Part shown: positions 11,882-34,443 of the stretch, in pieces
How positions within the stretch are numbered: the stretch's first letter is position 1
Layout of the letters: each line of letters opens with the position of its first letter
Origin: Saprospiraceae bacterium
GTDB lineage: Bacteria > Bacteroidota > Bacteroidia > Chitinophagales > Saprospiraceae
Direction of reading: 5' to 3'
Assembly: GCA_015490175.1 (NCBI GenBank)
Contig: WFYJ01000001.1
Location: forward strand, 1 to 35,040
DNA length: 35,040 nt
Translations under genes and position numbers: made by a program
The notes under the pieces: model-generated
What the model was told of the DNA's origin: nothing
The model's input: only the letters and a program-made list of their open reading frames with translations
The model's database searches: none

Positions 11882-12706
11882 ATGAATACGACCCCGAAAC
11901 ACATGACTATCGCGCTCCGCACATACGCACGCTTTCTCCGGGCCATCAGTCTGCTCGCCCTGCTGGCAAGCGGCTGCCGCTTCAACGACGAGCCCAGACC
12001 CGTATTCATTGACCTGGAAGACTCATTCCAACTCGACCTGTTCGAAAAACTCGACTTTTCGACGCGCCAGGCGCAGCTGCTGCTGACTACCCTCAAGCCC
12101 CTGCCCTGTCAGAACTATTCCCTCGATTACGATCTGTTTCACTCGGGCACCAACATCCAATTGCAGCTCAACAGCCTCAACCCGCCCGCCGACGAATGCA
12201 TCACGCCACCCCTGCCGCTCACCACGGCCATCAGCCTCGGATACCTCATTCCCAACGACTACAAACTGGAAATCGTCATCAACGACGTGCTGGCCTACAC
12301 CGGCACGCTCGAGGTAACTCCCGAATGGTACAGCCTGCACCTGCCCTCGGGCCAGGGCATCGAATTGCTGCACGACACGCTCTATCGCATACCGACCAAT
12401 GCCATCTGGGGCTATGCGGGCTACGACGATCCACAGCTCGACCAGTTGGCTGCCGACTTTCTCGGCGAGCTCGAAACCATGTCCGAACCCATGCCCTTGC
12501 AAAAAGGACATTACGGCTACTTCACCATCGACGCCGCAGGACAACCGACCTTCCATCCTCCTGCCGAAGAGCTGTACGTACATCCCTTCTTCCGCCTCTA
12601 TACGGGCGACCGCGAGGAACTGATCCAGTTGCTCGAACAATACCGCAACCAGTCGGGCAATCAGCTCACCATTCAGCTCTACACCCACCGCGGGGAGCAG
12701 CTTTGA
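11882..12706 (+). CDS. Lipoprotein of unknown function
   Basis: A 274-residue lipoprotein. The N-terminus has basic residues, a hydrophobic run (AISLLALLA) and a lipobox ending ASGC, which places the lipidated Cys at residue 32. No family is recognised for the mature part, which is acidic and mixed in secondary structure, with two Cys (in LPCQNYSL and DECITPP) that could form a disulfide. It probably sits on the outer membrane or cell surface. The open frame extends 40 codons upstream, but only ATG 11882 or ATG 11903 gives a sensible signal peptide. It is followed directly by a repeat region with a terminator-like hairpin at 12906. Confidence 0.8.
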   Translation: MNTTPKHMTIALRTYARFLRAISLLALLASGCRFNDEPRPVFIDLEDSFQLDLFEKLDFSTRQAQLLLTTLKPLPCQNYSLDYDLFHSGTNIQLQLNSLNPPADECITPPLPLTTAISLGYLIPNDYKLEIVINDVLAYTGTLEVTPEWYSLHLPSGQGIELLHDTLYRIPTNAIWGYAGYDDPQLDQLAADFLGELETMSEPMPLQKGHYGYFTIDAAGQPTFHPPAEELYVHPFFRLYTGDREELIQLLEQYRNQSGNQLTIQLYTHRGEQL

Positions 12707-12905
12707 TGATCATCGCGTTGGTCGTCTCCCCGATTACACTCAACGCAATTCGGTTCGGGAGTTTTTGGCGAGAGTCATTTGGGGATGGAGTGACGGAGAG
12801 AGAGTGAGTGAAGCGTCTGCTAATCATTCAGTTACACAGAGCATCCACCGAGAACACACTGAGTTTCACAGAGTTAAAAAAACTGCGTGCAAACTGCGGC
12901 GCTCT

Positions 12906-12928
12906 GCGGCCGAAGGCTGCGGTTTTTT
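12906..12928 (+). terminator. Hairpin plus T run after the lipoprotein gene
   Basis: GCGGCC-GAA-GGCTGC followed by GG and TTTTTT. It lies 200 bp after the lipoprotein stop and in its direction, so it is a plausible intrinsic terminator carried by the repeat. Confidence 0.5.
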
Positions 12929-12932
12929 GGCT

Positions 12933-13012
12933 GAGGAACCGAGGAACCGAGGAACTGAGGAACTGAGGAACTGAGGAACTGAAGAACTGAAGAACTGAAG
13001 AACTGAAGAACT
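12933..13012 (+). repeat. Tandem array of ten 8-nt units
   Basis: Ten uninterrupted units: two GAGGAACC, then four GAGGAACT, then four GAAGAACT. Other copies of the same module (337-350, 20971-20990) have only one or two units, so the array has expanded at this site. The ordered variants point to slippage or unequal exchange. Confidence 0.9.
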
Positions 13013-13198
13013 GGGTGTTTGACAAAATACTGATAATCAGCAAGAAAAACTTTAAACTTTAAACTCTAAACCCTAAACTCTACACCCTCAACTCTCAACT
13101 CAACCCTCAACTTCAAGCCTCTGCATGGCACCTTTTTCAGTAGCCTCAGCAAAAAAGGGAAAGCCCGGAACGCGTGAGCCGGCGGGGAAAGGTGCAGC

Positions 13199-14644
13199 TC
13201 AGGCAATGACGCGGCCGTCTGCAGCACCCGTTGTCTGCCCGCGACGAATGCGGCTCATGGGGATGGTGAAATAGAAGGTCGTGCCTTCGCCTTCCTTCGA
13301 CTGGAGCCAGATCTTGCCGCCCAGATTGGAAACGATCTTGCGCACCGTGGCCAGGCCGATGCCCGAGCCCTCGTAGTCCGACTGGGCATGCAGCCGCTCG
13401 AAAATGTCGAACACGCGATGTTGCTGGTCTTCGGGAATACCTATTCCGTTGTCTTCAATTCTGAACAGGTAATGGCCTCCCTCTTCGGTAGCCGTGATGC
13501 GAATTTCCGGCGCCACGTCCGGCTTGCGAAACTTCAGCGCATTGGACAGCAGATTCTGGAACAACTGTATCAATTCGGTAGTCGAGCCATGCACCACGGG
13601 CAACAGATTGGAACAGATGGAGGCCCCGCTCTCCTTCATGGCTACCGTCAGGTTGGAAAGCACGGTAAAGAGCAGCTCGTTCAGATCGTTGTCCTGCATG
13701 TCGCTGTGGCGGCCCGTCCGTGAATACTGGAGCAGATCGTCGAGCATGCGCTGCATACGGCCGACCCCATCGCGCACGTACTTCATGAATTCCTGCGTGT
13801 CTTCGGCAAGCTGCCCCTGGAGCTGCCGCTCGATCAACTGGGTGTACATGCCGATCATGCGCAACGGCTCCTTCAGGTCGTGCGAGGCCGCATATGCAAA
13901 CTGCTCCAACTGCTTGTTGGTCTCTTCGATCTTGCGCTGAGCCTCCCGCAAGGCATCCAACTGCTTCCTGATCTGCACCTGCTGATCGGAAAGGATTTTT
14001 TTCTGCTCCTGGAGCTTGTCAATGATCATCGCCTGGCCCGTCTCGAAGATATAGACGATGCCCAATAGAACCGCAAAAAAGAGGGTGAAGCTCAAAAAGT
14101 AATAGTCTGGCGTAAAGCGCATGAGCTGCTCCTTGAATCCTGCATCGTCCTGCAGGTGAAGGATCAGCAGCACCAGGCTGAACAGCGTCAGCACGCCTGC
14201 CCAGACAAACCCCCATCGCCGCTCGGAAAACAACACGGCAATGGCCGGCGCCAGAGCCAACCACAGCATATTGTCGGAATACAGACCTCCCGTCTGGAGA
14301 ATGGCCGGAACGAGCACAAAAAACCAGCCGGCGGCAAGGAAATTACCGGTGATTTCAAGGCTTTGGGTAGTTTTCAGCAAAACCAGAGAAATTATCAGCC
14401 CCAACAACGCCCCTAACAATGGCACATCCTTATTTTCAGGTGTAAACACATTAGTAGTGAAAATCATCACCAAAATAGTAAAAACCAGATAGATGTGCAA
14501 TTCAACAAGGGTGTGGACACGGAAATACTCTACGGGCTTCTTTTCCCTACTCAAATTTTGCGGGACCAACCAGAAAGCCAACCTGTCCTTGATCTCCTTT
14601 ATCTTCCTCATAGGTTTATGAAATCTGTGCTCCTCATTCCTCAA
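13199..14644 (-). CDS. Six-TM sensor histidine kinase
   Basis: A 481-residue membrane histidine kinase. Six hydrophobic helices are predicted at about 47-63, 74-92, 102-117, 126-140, 145-163 and 183-200, followed by a coiled coil (207-247). The HisKA domain has SHDLKEPLRMI with the phospho-accepting H255. The ATPase domain has the N box (LFQNLLSNALKF, N364/N368), G1 EDNGIGIP (398-402) and G2 GSGIGLATV (426-433). No receiver domain or adjacent response regulator is present, so its partner is elsewhere. The sensor has no large periplasmic loop, so the ligand is probably membrane-soluble or sensed within the membrane, as in CqsS. The first 90-100 codons have lower GC than the rest. ATG 14644 is taken; ATG 14611 is an alternative. 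It lies 80 bp downstream of the PLP enzyme gene. Confidence 0.9.
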   Translation of the reverse strand: MRNEEHRFHKPMRKIKEIKDRLAFWLVPQNLSREKKPVEYFRVHTLVELHIYLVFTILVMIFTTNVFTPENKDVPLLGALLGLIISLVLLKTTQSLEITGNFLAAGWFFVLVPAILQTGGLYSDNMLWLALAPAIAVLFSERRWGFVWAGVLTLFSLVLLILHLQDDAGFKEQLMRFTPDYYFLSFTLFFAVLLGIVYIFETGQAMIIDKLQEQKKILSDQQVQIRKQLDALREAQRKIEETNKQLEQFAYAASHDLKEPLRMIGMYTQLIERQLQGQLAEDTQEFMKYVRDGVGRMQRMLDDLLQYSRTGRHSDMQDNDLNELLFTVLSNLTVAMKESGASICSNLLPVVHGSTTELIQLFQNLLSNALKFRKPDVAPEIRITATEEGGHYLFRIEDNGIGIPEDQQHRVFDIFERLHAQSDYEGSGIGLATVRKIVSNLGGKIWLQSKEGEGTTFYFTIPMSRIRRGQTTGAADGRVIA

Positions 14645-14655
14645 TTTTCACACCA

Positions 14656-14689
14656 AAACAAAAAGGATGCCCTACATAGACATCCCTTT
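14656..14689 (-). terminator. Terminator-like hairpin between PLP enzyme and kinase
   Basis: On the minus strand AAAGG(G)ATG pairs with CATCCTTT with one bulged G (14662-14689), then TTTTTGTTTT follows. It could end the PLP enzyme transcript or work as a partial terminator that lowers kinase expression. No room for a full promoter remains between it and the kinase start. Confidence 0.5.
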
Positions 14690-14724
14690 CTTGAAACCTA
14701 CGCTAACCTAATTCTTACTGGTTA

Positions 14725-16026
14725 CTAAACAATAGCGACTGAAGGCAGTTTCATCTTAAATGCTTCAAAAATCTCTTGGTAGGAAAATCCCTCCTCCTTC
14801 AATGCTTCATCCAAGGACTCTTTCAAATTAAACGTAAACTCTTCAACATCTTTCAATGAGTGATGATTTGTTAATGTAAAGCGAAGGCCTGTATTTCTAA
14901 TAGGCACACTGGGATAAGTTGCAATATTCAAATAAAACCCTCGATCGTGCATTTTTTGTACAACCTTGTAGCCCACTTGCGGCTTGCTCACTGCCACGAA
15001 GAAAATTGGTGTGTCTTCAAATTCGACTAAAGGCAAACACAATTGCCTACAGCAGTCATTAGCTTTCTTTACCCTTTCTTGCAATTGGGCTTGCAACTGA
15101 CCAATCTCATCAGAAAGGTGAATTTTTGCTGACTGGATAGCTGCCCCAAGAGAAGGGTTTGGAACAGGTCCGGAAAAAAACATCGTTGAACCAGTATTAT
15201 TCACATAATCTCTCAATTCCCTATTCGGGAACACCAAACAACCTCCATAAGCAGCAAAGCTCTTTCCCAAGCTTGTGGCAAGCACCATTCGATCATGAAA
15301 TGCGATGCGATCCAAAACGACCCCACACCCATTCCTTCCACACCAGCTCATTCCGTGGGCGTCATCAATATAAAGATGGAGATTGTCATACTTTTCCAAC
15401 AGTTCAAGCAAGGCATTCAACGGAGCAATATCCCCAAACATTGAATATACGCCATCCAGAAAATACCAAATGTTCCGATAATCTTTTGATAGCTTTTTAA
15501 TCCGCCATTCCAGGTTTTCCAAATTATTATGGCGAATCATTTCCACATGTACCCCACCTGATTTAGCTATTCTCACAGCATTTTGCACACTTGCATGAAC
15601 CTGGTGGTCCAGAATCGCGACGTCCTGTACATCCAATAGAGAGGGAATCGCAGCAATATGACCAAGAGTAGTAGTAGGAGTAATGATCAAGGGCTTTTGA
15701 AAAATACGCTCTAAAAGGTATTGCAACTCTCTATAGAGTGGTGAAGACAAAAAAGCTCTCGAGGAAGAAAAAGCAGGGCCGTACCTCCGAGTAGCATCAA
15801 TTGCCGCTTCTTTCATCCGTGAATCGAGGTCCAACCCCAAGTAACTACAAGACCCGAAATTCTTCACCACCTTACCATTGATAGTGATTTCATTGCCCTT
15901 GAGTACTTCGTCTTCGAGGATGATGTAGCCGATGGAGTTTTGAGCACAATAGGTAGCCTCTTTATGGAGGTCTTCCAACAACCTGGACGTGTTGTGCATG
16001 GGACGGGGGGTGATTTGTTTGTTCAT
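14725..16026 (-). CDS. PLP-dependent alpha-oxoamine synthase family enzyme
   Basis: A 433-residue fold-type I PLP enzyme of the alpha-oxoamine synthase group (KBL, BioF, serine palmitoyltransferase, CqsA), which condenses an amino acid with an acyl-CoA. Visible motifs: SCSYLGL near 59-65 (the N-Y-L-G site), DHQVHAS at 140-146 with the PLP-stacking H144, DGVYSMFGDIAPL at 191-203, DDAH at 221-224 and TSLGKSF at 251-257 with the PLP lysine K255. Length is normal and all key residues are present. The acyl donor and amino acid cannot be read from the sequence. It is not next to biotin, heme, threonine or sphingolipid genes, but beside a six-TM kinase, which fits a CqsA/LqsA-like signal synthase. 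GC is about 40% from codon 42 onward, far below the neighbours. Confidence 0.85.
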   Translation of the reverse strand: MNKQITPRPMHNTSRLLEDLHKEATYCAQNSIGYIILEDEVLKGNEITINGKVVKNFGSCSYLGLDLDSRMKEAAIDATRRYGPAFSSSRAFLSSPLYRELQYLLERIFQKPLIITPTTTLGHIAAIPSLLDVQDVAILDHQVHASVQNAVRIAKSGGVHVEMIRHNNLENLEWRIKKLSKDYRNIWYFLDGVYSMFGDIAPLNALLELLEKYDNLHLYIDDAHGMSWCGRNGCGVVLDRIAFHDRMVLATSLGKSFAAYGGCLVFPNRELRDYVNNTGSTMFFSGPVPNPSLGAAIQSAKIHLSDEIGQLQAQLQERVKKANDCCRQLCLPLVEFEDTPIFFVAVSKPQVGYKVVQKMHDRGFYLNIATYPSVPIRNTGLRFTLTNHHSLKDVEEFTFNLKESLDEALKEEGFSYQEIFEAFKMKLPSVAIV

Positions 16027-16201
16027 AGTTTTTGTGTTTGAAGGGTGAAAATTCGTCGGGGAAAACGCAGCAGCAGCCTGCAGGCGAATACAACCTTTCA
16101 GGCGGGTTTGAAGGTGAATGCAAAGCTTAAGGGGTTGGCAAACGCTCGGAGCGTGGTGGTGACGTGATGTTTGAGGAAAGACTTTTGTATTGTCGTCCGG
16201 C

Positions 16202-16232
16202 CAAATTTAATCACATATTGCAATATACACAA
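16202..16232 (-). promoter_or_regulatory. Promoter of the PLP enzyme gene with internal palindrome
   Basis: On the minus strand TTG (16232-16230) is followed by 20 nt and TAAATTTG (16209-16202), a perfect Bacteroidota-type promoter, giving a leader of about 170 nt. A perfect 12-bp palindrome, ATATTGCAATAT (16215-16226), lies between the two boxes, where a bound regulator would block the polymerase. The divergent Lrp-type gene starts about 270 bp away and is the obvious candidate regulator. The rest of the gap (16027-16503) shows no gene. Confidence 0.55.
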
Positions 16233-16434
16233 TAAGATGGAAAATTAAATTTTGTTTTAATTTGAAAATCATGAAGTTGTTGATACAACTACCCTTGATC
16301 AGCCCGGTCGGCCGGACGGGCCGGAGCGGAGGGGCCGGTACGTTCCGGCCAACCGATTTGTCAAAATTTTATTGCATCGAAGTGGGCAATAAGCTTTGAG
16401 AATAAAATTATTGACGGGTGTAACGGCATATTTT

Positions 16435-16465
16435 TTGGATTTTGTTTGCAACCCCCGTAACTTGG
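16435..16465 (+). promoter_or_regulatory. Possible promoter of the Lrp-type regulator
   Basis: TTG (16435-16437), 20 nt, then TAACTTGG (16458-16465), one base from TAnnTTTG. The start of transcription would be about 30 nt before the chosen ATG. The imperfect -7 box makes this tentative. Confidence 0.35.
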
Positions 16466-16503
16466 CCCGCGAAACTGCCCGTTCAACAAACCTCAACGAA
16501 ATC

Positions 16504-16983
16504 ATGCCGGACAAACTGGACAAGATTGATCTCAAGATTTTGCGCATCCTGCAGGAAAACAGCAAGATCACCAACCTGGAATTGTCGCGCCGCATTGGCC
16601 TGTCGCCGGCGCCCACGCTCGAGCGCGTAAAAAAGCTGGAAAACAACAACGTCATTCTCAGCTATCATGCCGAGGTCAACCCGCAGGCACTGGGACTGAA
16701 TGTGATGACCTTCGTCCTGGTGTCGCTGGCATGGAAGAAAGAAGACGCCCTCAATCGCTTCCTCGAAAAGATCAAGACCATAGACGAAATCGTGGAGAGC
16801 TACATCATCACGGGCGAAGCCGATTTTCTCATCAAGGTCATCTGCAAAGACATTCCCACTTACGAGCAACTGCTCTTCAAGCTCTCGCAGATCGACGAGA
16901 TCGAACGGCTCAAGACGCTCATGACGCTTTCCACGGTGAAGAAGTCCAGCATTCTGCCGTATGATTACGATTACGAACCCTGA
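16504..16983 (+). CDS. Lrp/AsnC family transcriptional regulator
   Basis: A 159-residue regulator. Residues 3-60 form the AsnC-type winged helix-turn-helix (DLKILRILQENSKITNLELS, then SPAPTLERVKKLE). The C-terminal half (about 68-150) is the RAM effector and oligomerisation domain (MTFVLVSLA, then EIVESYIITGEADFLIKV). Members assemble as dimers to octamers and usually respond to amino acids. The ATG at 16504 is chosen because it begins the conserved domain; the longer frame from 16396 adds 36 unlike residues that overlap the likely promoter. It is transcribed away from the PLP enzyme gene, an arrangement in which Lrp-type proteins often control the divergent neighbour. Its stop codon is also the first base triplet of a mobile-type repeat. 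Confidence 0.93.
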   Translation: MPDKLDKIDLKILRILQENSKITNLELSRRIGLSPAPTLERVKKLENNNVILSYHAEVNPQALGLNVMTFVLVSLAWKKEDALNRFLEKIKTIDEIVESYIITGEADFLIKVICKDIPTYEQLLFKLSQIDEIERLKTLMTLSTVKKSSILPYDYDYEP

Positions 16984-33306: not shown

Positions 33307-34443
33307 ATGAACGCAACTACCAGACAGGACCTGCACGGAATCCTCTATCATTCGCTGATTGAAAACAGTGCTGTGCCCCTGGCCGCAGTGGACGACCAGC
33401 TCAAGATTCTGAAGGCCAATCCTGCCTTCTGTGATCTCGTGGGGCTGCCCTTCAACCACGACCTCGCCGAAATGCTGCTCGAGCAGTTGCCCTTTGCCGC
33501 CGATCAGCACTTCCAGGACTTGCTGCAGCACATGTTGCGGCACCGCATCGACAAATTCGAGTACGAAACGCACGTCACCTCGCCTTTCTACGAGGAAACC
33601 CGGCATCTCAAACTGACCTTTTCGGCCCAATGGCGGCAGAGCCGCTTTGGCGGCGGGCTGCTGCTCCTGAACGACATCACCCAATTTCACAAGAAAAAAC
33701 ACCTGCTCGAAGAGCGCATCAAGGCCATGCGCCAAGAGAACGAAAAGCTCAAGCAGACCATAGAAGACGCCGAAGGGCTGCAACAGTTCTCACAGCTTGC
33801 CGCCCACGACCTGAAAGGGCCGATCCGCATCCTGGGCAACTTCAGCCAGCTATTGCTGCGGCGCTACCGGGAAGTGCTGGATGAAGAAGGCCGCGACTAT
33901 CTGCAGTTCATCCACGACAGCGCCACGCACCTCAACCTCGTCCTCACCGACATGATCCACTACGCCGACGTGGCCAGCAAGCCGCTCCACTTCGACGTGT
34001 TCGACTTCCAACAACTGATCCGCCAGGTCAGAACCAGGATGGCGCCCCTGCTCGAACAACATGGAGCGGTGCTCGAGTTTGAAAACCCGCCCAAACTCAT
34101 TCATGGCTCGCGCAAGTACCTGCGCCTGCTCTTCCTGCACCTCATCGAGAATGCCATCAAATTCGCCAAACCGGGCATACCGCCCCGCATCCGTATCACC
34201 CACCACCGCACCCCCGAGCATCACATCTTCGCCGTGCAGGACAACGGCATCGGCATCGCACCGGCCTATCAGGAGAAGATCTTCGAGCTGTTCAAGCGCC
34301 TCGACCCCGCCAGCAACCGCCCCGGCTCGGGCGTGGGCCTGGCCATCTGCAAAAAGATCGTGGAGCGCCATGGCGGCAAGATGTGGGTCGAGTCGAAAGA
34401 AGGCGAGGGCAGCACCTTCTATTTTTCGCTTCAGCGACTCTGA
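33307..34443 (+). CDS. Soluble PAS-domain sensor histidine kinase
   Basis: A 378-residue cytoplasmic kinase without membrane helices. Residues 10-125 form a PAS domain (LIENSAVPLAAVDDQLKILKANPAF, ending GGLLLLNDITQF), then a coiled coil (128-158). The HisKA domain has AAHDLKGPIRIL with the phospho-accepting H167. The ATPase domain has HLIENAIKFAK (N282), G1 QDNGIGIA (D312-G316), the F-box EKIFELFKRLD and G2 GSGVGLAICKK (340-350). No response regulator is adjacent, so it is an orphan. The PAS domain has no clear heme or flavin ligand. It starts at ATG 33307. A strong terminator follows the stop. Confidence 0.92.
   Translation: MNATTRQDLHGILYHSLIENSAVPLAAVDDQLKILKANPAFCDLVGLPFNHDLAEMLLEQLPFAADQHFQDLLQHMLRHRIDKFEYETHVTSPFYEETRHLKLTFSAQWRQSRFGGGLLLLNDITQFHKKKHLLEERIKAMRQENEKLKQTIEDAEGLQQFSQLAAHDLKGPIRILGNFSQLLLRRYREVLDEEGRDYLQFIHDSATHLNLVLTDMIHYADVASKPLHFDVFDFQQLIRQVRTRMAPLLEQHGAVLEFENPPKLIHGSRKYLRLLFLHLIENAIKFAKPGIPPRIRITHHRTPEHHIFAVQDNGIGIAPAYQEKIFELFKRLDPASNRPGSGVGLAICKKIVERHGGKMWVESKEGEGSTFYFSLQRL

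Follow-up and report, generated by a model that had tools for sequence, protein, structure and literature searches.

Could an alpha-oxoamine synthase (AOS) and the membrane histidine kinase encoded beside it produce and sense a common signal in a host belonging to Bacteroidota? This question is raised by a stretch of 35,040 nt from a Saprospiraceae bacterium (GCA_015490175.1, contig WFYJ01000001.1, positions 1 to 35,040, forward strand), referred to below as the window; the host draft genome comprises 4.14 Mb in 291 contigs. The AOS (14725–16026, minus strand, 433 aa) lies upstream of a sensor histidine kinase (13199–14644, minus strand), and the two genes are separated by 80 nt. In Vibrio and Legionella, AOS-made signals are known to be read by a neighbouring six-helix kinase, and the same has been inferred in Janthinobacterium. 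An earlier note on this DNA proposed a pair of this kind, and the layout it reported (enzyme upstream of kinase on the same strand, no adjoining response regulator) holds within the window.

The adjacency of enzyme and kinase exceeds chance and recurs in other genomes. On the best reading, the enzyme belongs to a subgroup of AOS for which no function has been described and which is coupled to two-component signalling. The AOS may make a lipophilic product sensed by the adjacent six-helix kinase, a working like that of CqsA/CqsS carried by a separate enzyme subgroup and a separate sensor; we favour this reading tentatively.

Linkage of the Enzyme to Two-Component Genes

To recognise two-component genes, custom profiles built from Pfam-verified seeds were used in place of Pfam's own models. 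The locus sets used (relatives plus class, named genomes, host family) overlap, and near-duplicates were removed only in clustering at 70% identity. In the relatives-plus-class set, a two-component gene is located within 3 kb of 44 of 63 AOS loci and of 3 of 40 KBL loci in those genomes (Fisher p 1.9e-10), and it is the immediate neighbour in 28/63 and 0/40 loci, respectively (p 9.9e-8); both values are uncorrected for ancestry, and the control represents 40 of the 52 full-length strong KBL matches listed. The linkage supposed by the earlier note thus lies far above the control. In the named-genome set 59 of 79 AOS loci carry a two-component gene (L326, in which no AOS frame was found, was left out).

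Merging of the sets gave 181 loci, which formed 98 clusters at 70% AOS identity; 79 remained after 19 clusters with flanks shorter than 1.5 kb were dropped. Two-component genes are found within 3 kb in 59 of these 79 non-redundant clusters, namely in 34/41 with an AOS fused to a second domain (discussed below) and in 25/38 with an unfused AOS. They are immediate neighbours in 11/41 fused and 24/38 unfused clusters.

The form of the enzyme correlates with the topology of the kinase. At least three helices are predicted in 24 of 27 kinases near unfused AOS, and none in 30 of 37 near fused AOS (kinases with fewer than 60 residues before the core were left out); the host genome has 17 analysable HisKA kinases, of which 3, the window kinase included, have at least three. 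Shared descent accounts for part of this correlation, as the fused form falls mostly into a single lineage of the AOS tree. The membrane kinases beside unfused AOS are of at least three sorts: the six-helix kinase of the window type; related kinases, mostly with PAS domains and sometimes with a separate receiver; and LytS-type kinases with a LytTR regulator.

Within the host family, a kinase of the window type is located directly downstream and on the same strand in 14 of the 35 unfused loci with enough sequence, representing several genera (near-duplicates were kept, and 8 of 57 loci were set aside as too short). Lack of conservation of the kinase neighbour, which the earlier note had named as evidence against its proposal, is therefore not what was found. 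The remaining unfused loci comprise one with another orientation, three with other two-component genes and 17 with none. Outside the genus of the window, the linked AOS are 42–52% identical to the window AOS. Other recurrent neighbour families were not found in more than 3 of 23 clustered loci, later loci being compared by gene size only.

Co-occurrence points in the same direction: AOS is present in 12 of 19 genomes having the sensor and in 11 of 129 others. Kinases linked to AOS, both sensor groups taken together, do not form one clade, with six label changes on the kinase tree and five on the host-family AOS tree; gains or losses of the linkage have therefore occurred. The distances of AOS and sensors are correlated (Mantel r 0.80, 0/5000 permutations, 28 kinases including duplicates and two-kinase loci); this value still contains the contribution of species history and does not count as proof.

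The Enzyme

The window AOS is a complete open reading frame (ORF) matching Pfam Aminotran_1_2, and its assignment is based on Pfam and NCBIfam, the tree and a residue census. The signature reported earlier (K255, H144 and the DDAH motif) is present. The lysine binding pyridoxal 5'-phosphate (PLP), the ring-stacking His, the Asp and His of the PLP site and the carboxylate-binding Arg, by which members of the AOS group are recognised, correspond to K255, H144, D221, H224 and R382. K255, H144, D221 and H224 are invariant in 181/181 homologous loci (near-duplicates included) and D222 in 175/181; R382 is kept in all 178 rows having a letter at that column.

Two positions are unusual. Cys60 occurs in 179/181 loci, whereas 8/8 classical references have Asn there (the KBL N50/BioF N47 position); this Asn is kept in classical AOS and not strictly superfamily-wide, and the sister-group AOS have Cys in two of four cases, Gly and Tyr in the other two. 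His123 occurs in 181/181 loci, as opposed to Asn in 7/8 classical references, and one of the four sister AOS also has His.

The best NCBIfam model is PRK07505 (NF005697, 'hypothetical protein'), which is also the top model for 7/7 clade members scanned. It is the highest-scoring family for the window AOS, yet its 256 bits lie under the cut-off of 342; the family record gives no function, and its name is not mentioned in the open-access literature searched. Lower scores were obtained with bioF (168 bits), serine palmitoyltransferase (SPT, 157 bits) and glycine C-acetyltransferase (133 bits). On the model of alpha-hydroxyketone autoinducer synthases (NF005526), the window AOS reaches 70.5 bits against a cut-off of 428, and the other two AOS of the host genome score higher (188 and 161 bits). 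One of these two is KBL (642 bits, cut-off 493), and the other has cysteate fatty acyltransferase as the closest PDB match (569 bits). Given KBL and this cysteate-acyltransferase-like AOS (L002, L003), sulfonolipid synthesis by the host is plausible.

A quick tree of 71 rows was calculated with 59 sampled homologues (L030, L044, L154 and L158 were left out), and these 59 constitute one side of a branch (support 94). The adjoining clade contains AOS of Rhizobium, Sinorhizobium and Enterobacter together with PDB 8XHA (group support 80), which the text seen of PMC11906848 gives as Alb29 of Streptomyces albogriseolus. Alb29, a natural-product enzyme with Tyr in place of Cys60, is the best PDB match of the window AOS by sequence (131 bits). 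We know of no kinase linked to it.

A long, fully supported branch divides the window clade and its sister group from BioF, KBL, SPT, the cysteate enzyme and three CqsA-type proteins. A firm grouping with BioF, KBL or SPT, which the earlier note would have counted against its proposal, is thus absent. Constraining the window AOS with CqsA was rejected (approximately unbiased (AU) test, p 0.002); both the tree and the AU result should be read cautiously, given the long branches of the reference sequences. The kinship with CqsA/LqsA considered in the earlier note was not borne out: CqsA groups on the BioF/KBL/SPT side, and assignment of the window AOS to this synthase group was rejected on its score of 70 of 428 bits, the tree position and the AU test.

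The Sensor and the Intergenic Hairpin

The kinase comprises 481 aa from a TTG start or 470 aa from an in-frame ATG 11 codons into the ORF. A six-helix N-terminal sensor is predicted to precede HisKA and HATPase_c, the arrangement of CqsS and LqsS (Pfam, alignment with five relatives, topology). The putative sensor domain covers about residues 1–240 (13925–14644, minus strand). Five helices are predicted from hydropathy at one threshold, and a sixth is added when the threshold is relaxed. An AlphaFold2 model of residues 1–245 (mean pLDDT 79, pTM 0.68, nine aligned sequences) is consistent with six membrane helices, the fourth of them broken, and with the lack of a large extracytoplasmic domain, as the earlier note had predicted.

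The sensor family has no Pfam or NCBIfam match above cut-off in the five sensors tested (MASE6 is sub-threshold in one relative), and a fold search with the predicted model found no PDB match (best E 0.53). By hhalign, the window sensors are related to a second group located beside unfused AOS in other families (95.2%, E 2.8e-8), a figure to be read with the prior selection of that group by profile match in mind; the LytS-type and a third sensor type give 1.9 and 0.2%. Assignment to CqsS was rejected on probabilities of 0.3–0.4% against a three-sequence CqsS-type profile, so that the likeness suggested earlier on this side of the pair does not extend to sequence kinship. Most of 25 sensors share a GG(I/L)YS motif (residues 119–123 in the window), which may resemble the quinone-site motif of RegB/PrrB kinases, a likeness that would favour regulation of the enzyme upon another stimulus (see below).

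The terminator-like hairpin noted earlier between the genes was confirmed by folding as a 13-pair stem at 14690–14660 on the minus strand (−19.2 kcal/mol, z −1.87, 10/200 shuffles equally good). A scan of 12700–16700 found 6 terminator-like sites, 5.1 being expected, so a single site is weak evidence. The gaps of 12 of the 14 linked host-family loci were folded (L389 and L397 were left out) and judged from the folds: strong hairpins stand at the same place in six, the window included, while in L404 and L392 the two genes abut or overlap, depending on the start codon chosen.

Distribution and the Fused Form

The AOS is present in 23/148 relatives, 67/395 Bacteroidia genomes and 53/398 host-family genomes (E thresholds of 1e-60, 1e-70 and 1e-80; the genome samples overlap). 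Among the best 80 loci in named genomes are those of Crocinitomix catalasitica, Imperialibacter, Flavihumibacter petaseus, Ginsengibacter hankyongi and Aureispira, which are cultured according to their titles, as well as contigs of metagenome-assembled genomes labelled Gammaproteobacteria, Myxococcales, Cyanobacteria and others. The latter may reflect transfer or contamination. C. catalasitica and F. petaseus carry an intact module of the fused form described next.

Many homologues are longer, at about 810–850 aa, and continue into a second domain. This domain matches Pfam Acetyltransf_6 (GNAT) weakly in the two proteins scanned, once above and once just below the cut-off. The fused AOS-GNAT gene is typically divergent from an operon encoding a DUF7793 protein, a PAS-HisKA_3 kinase and a response regulator with LuxR-type output; these parts were recognised by Pfam in two loci and by profile and size in the others. 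DUF7793 (PF25056) occurs near the AOS in 25/41 fused clusters (for instance, L130:6263-6664 and L132:4539-4928), and its predicted model (pLDDT 92) has a SpoIIAA/STAS-like fold, with 2q3l as the best PDB match (E 3e-6).

AOS-GNAT genes were also seen in L293, L324, L333, L340 and L349 on contigs labelled Cyanobacteria, Saccharospirillaceae, Myxococcaceae and Beijerinckiaceae; in L333 the AOS-GNAT, DUF7793, kinase and regulator genes all run in the same direction. A conserved-looking, uncharacterised ORF of about 70–91 aa follows many AOS-GNAT genes on the 3' side of the same strand (L337:8402-8656, L343:8500-8742, L323:8472-8699), and two of these tested had no Pfam match. No acyl carrier protein was found beside AOS by a rough composition filter, and the small downstream ORFs do not read as carrier proteins. 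In L152:3020-4771, genes for a thiolase and a 4HBT thioesterase are divergent from the AOS, with similar-sized genes at this place in some other loci; they perhaps hint at an acyl-CoA substrate.

Comparison with Known Systems and Proposed Mechanism

The window pair resembles CqsA/CqsS, LqsA/LqsS and JqsA/JqsS in having an AOS-fold enzyme beside a kinase, in the catalytic Lys, His, Asp, His and Arg, and in the predicted six-helix N-terminal sensor (CqsS and LqsS as presented in the text seen of PMC3376566). It differs from them in that the enzyme falls outside the CqsA group and has Cys for Asn at position 60, the sensor has no detected profile similarity, no regulator is adjacent, and the host belongs to Bacteroidota. 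The main texts of PMC3376566 and PMC3566124, as far as available, contain no mention of AOS/six-helix-kinase signalling in Bacteroidota, while Bacteroidetes homologues of other two-component quorum-sensing pairs are reported in the text seen of PMC8895600. CqsA/LqsA/JqsA aside, no AOS-kinase link for this subgroup or for Bacteroidota was found in titles and opening lines of abstracts of the open-access literature, nor was a joint mention of 'oxoamine synthase' and 'histidine kinase' in the literature searched.

From the conserved AOS chemistry, the product is likely to be an alpha-aminoketone; the enzyme would condense an amino acid with an acyl thioester. According to the text seen of PMC3376566, the CqsA enzyme produces Am-CAI-1, an amino form, in vitro, and a bioluminescence assay shows that this compound binds CqsS; reading of an aminoketone by a six-helix kinase is therefore reasonable on chemical grounds. 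The lipophilic product or its derivative could be sensed within the membrane by the neighbouring kinase, which would pass the signal to a response regulator encoded elsewhere in the genome. In this scheme we infer the identity of the product, its sensing by the kinase and the direction of information flow.

The window pair could belong to a broader collection of AOS/two-component modules with two forms: an unfused one, combining AOS with membrane-embedded kinases, and a fused one, in which AOS-GNAT, acyltransferase-like in its second part, would act with a soluble PAS-HisKA_3 kinase, a LuxR-type regulator and the STAS-like DUF7793 protein. Association of the unfused enzyme with a membrane sensor and of the fused enzyme with a soluble one would fit a product whose form sets the place of sensing. 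Extended to the phylum, this would give a Bacteroidota-wide signalling family, in which a free alpha-aminoketone from unfused AOS is read by six-helix kinases and a GNAT-N-acylated product of the fused enzyme by the soluble PAS kinase, DUF7793 and LuxR-type regulator, neither enzyme nor receptor coming from the subgroup of a known signal pair. We regard this extension as doubtful, though worth stating. Should the linkage represent sensing, a large phylum would gain aminoketone-type signals of its own, with receptors already paired to them; should it represent regulation only, it still defines an AOS subgroup, hitherto uncharacterised, whose active site is unusual and whose regulatory partner is consistent.

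Weighing of Rival Explanations

Several observations weigh against sensing of the AOS product by the kinase. A two-component gene accompanies only 16 of 39 AOS loci in the host-family set, and none lies within 3 kb in 17/35 unfused and 9/14 fused host-family loci. The sensor occurs without AOS in 7 of 19 genomes, and only 5 of 26 sensor places adjoin an AOS. The Fisher and Mantel values leave shared ancestry in, the hairpin argues against simple co-transcription of the two genes, and a cognate regulator, a transporter and a regulon were not found. With C60 standing where other AOS keep Asn, even the amino acid used as substrate is uncertain. The variety of kinases near AOS is as compatible with regulation of the enzyme as with product sensing, and a reading in which the two-component genes regulate AOS upon another stimulus (redox, membrane state, stress), the kinase being indifferent to the product, is nearly as likely as product sensing. 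The kinases beside AOS are of several types, regulator operons are often divergent from fused AOS in the usual layout of regulator and target, and a divergent Lrp/AsnC-type regulator adjoins the window AOS. By itself, such regulation leaves unexplained both the pattern of membrane kinases with unfused and soluble kinases with fused AOS and the recurrence, in the host family, of a kinase without an adjacent regulator as the partner.

The kinase could also gauge a lipid for feedback, the AOS starting a sphingolipid- or sulfonolipid-like base with no cell-to-cell role. The AOS superfamily includes lipid enzymes: SPT and cysteate acyltransferase (SulA, whose acyl donor is acyl-ACP according to the text seen of PMC9304779) share the PLP-site residues of the window AOS, and the fused GNAT could act as an N-acyltransferase, resembling a condensing enzyme followed by a ceramide-synthase-like step. 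Such homeostasis is nonetheless unlikely, as the genome already has a cysteate-acyltransferase-like AOS, from which, as from SPT, the window clade is far apart in the tree, and no non-kinase neighbour cluster occurs in more than 3 of 23 loci, most neighbours in the other sets being unannotated. Neutral adjacency of functionally unconnected genes would agree with the hairpin and with the many loci lacking a kinase; the KBL control and the recurrence in 14 host-family loci from several genera make it improbable. Least probable by far is a true CqsA/CqsS or LqsA/LqsS system in a Bacteroidota host. Its layout is that of Cupriavidus, where a kinase-like ORF directly follows a CqsA-like gene, six helices are also present in CqsS and LqsS (PMC3376566, in the text seen), and a remote homologue of the window sensor (L122, not AOS-linked) matches the Cupriavidus sensor with a BLAST E of 6e-5 in a three-sequence database with the low-complexity filter off. 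The synthase score, below those of the genome's other two AOS, the AU test and the profile probability of 0.4% (three-sequence profile) speak against it.

Neighbouring Genes and Other Features of the Window

The divergent Lrp/AsnC-type regulator (16396–16983, plus strand; Pfam/NCBIfam) probably starts at an internal ATG 36 codons in, and its homologues occur in two more of the 23 loci compared (G001 and G049). A second histidine kinase of the window, at 33307–34443, has a PAS-HisKA-HATPase architecture with no predicted membrane helices. G001 is the nearest relative in the compared set, and its AOS is 71% identical to that of the window. The window AOS gene has 42.8% G+C, as against 58.9% for the remainder of the window outside the pair, while the G001 AOS matches its own surroundings. 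Downstream of the kinase, at about 12936–13015, short near-identical repeats (ggaactga-like units) form a run.

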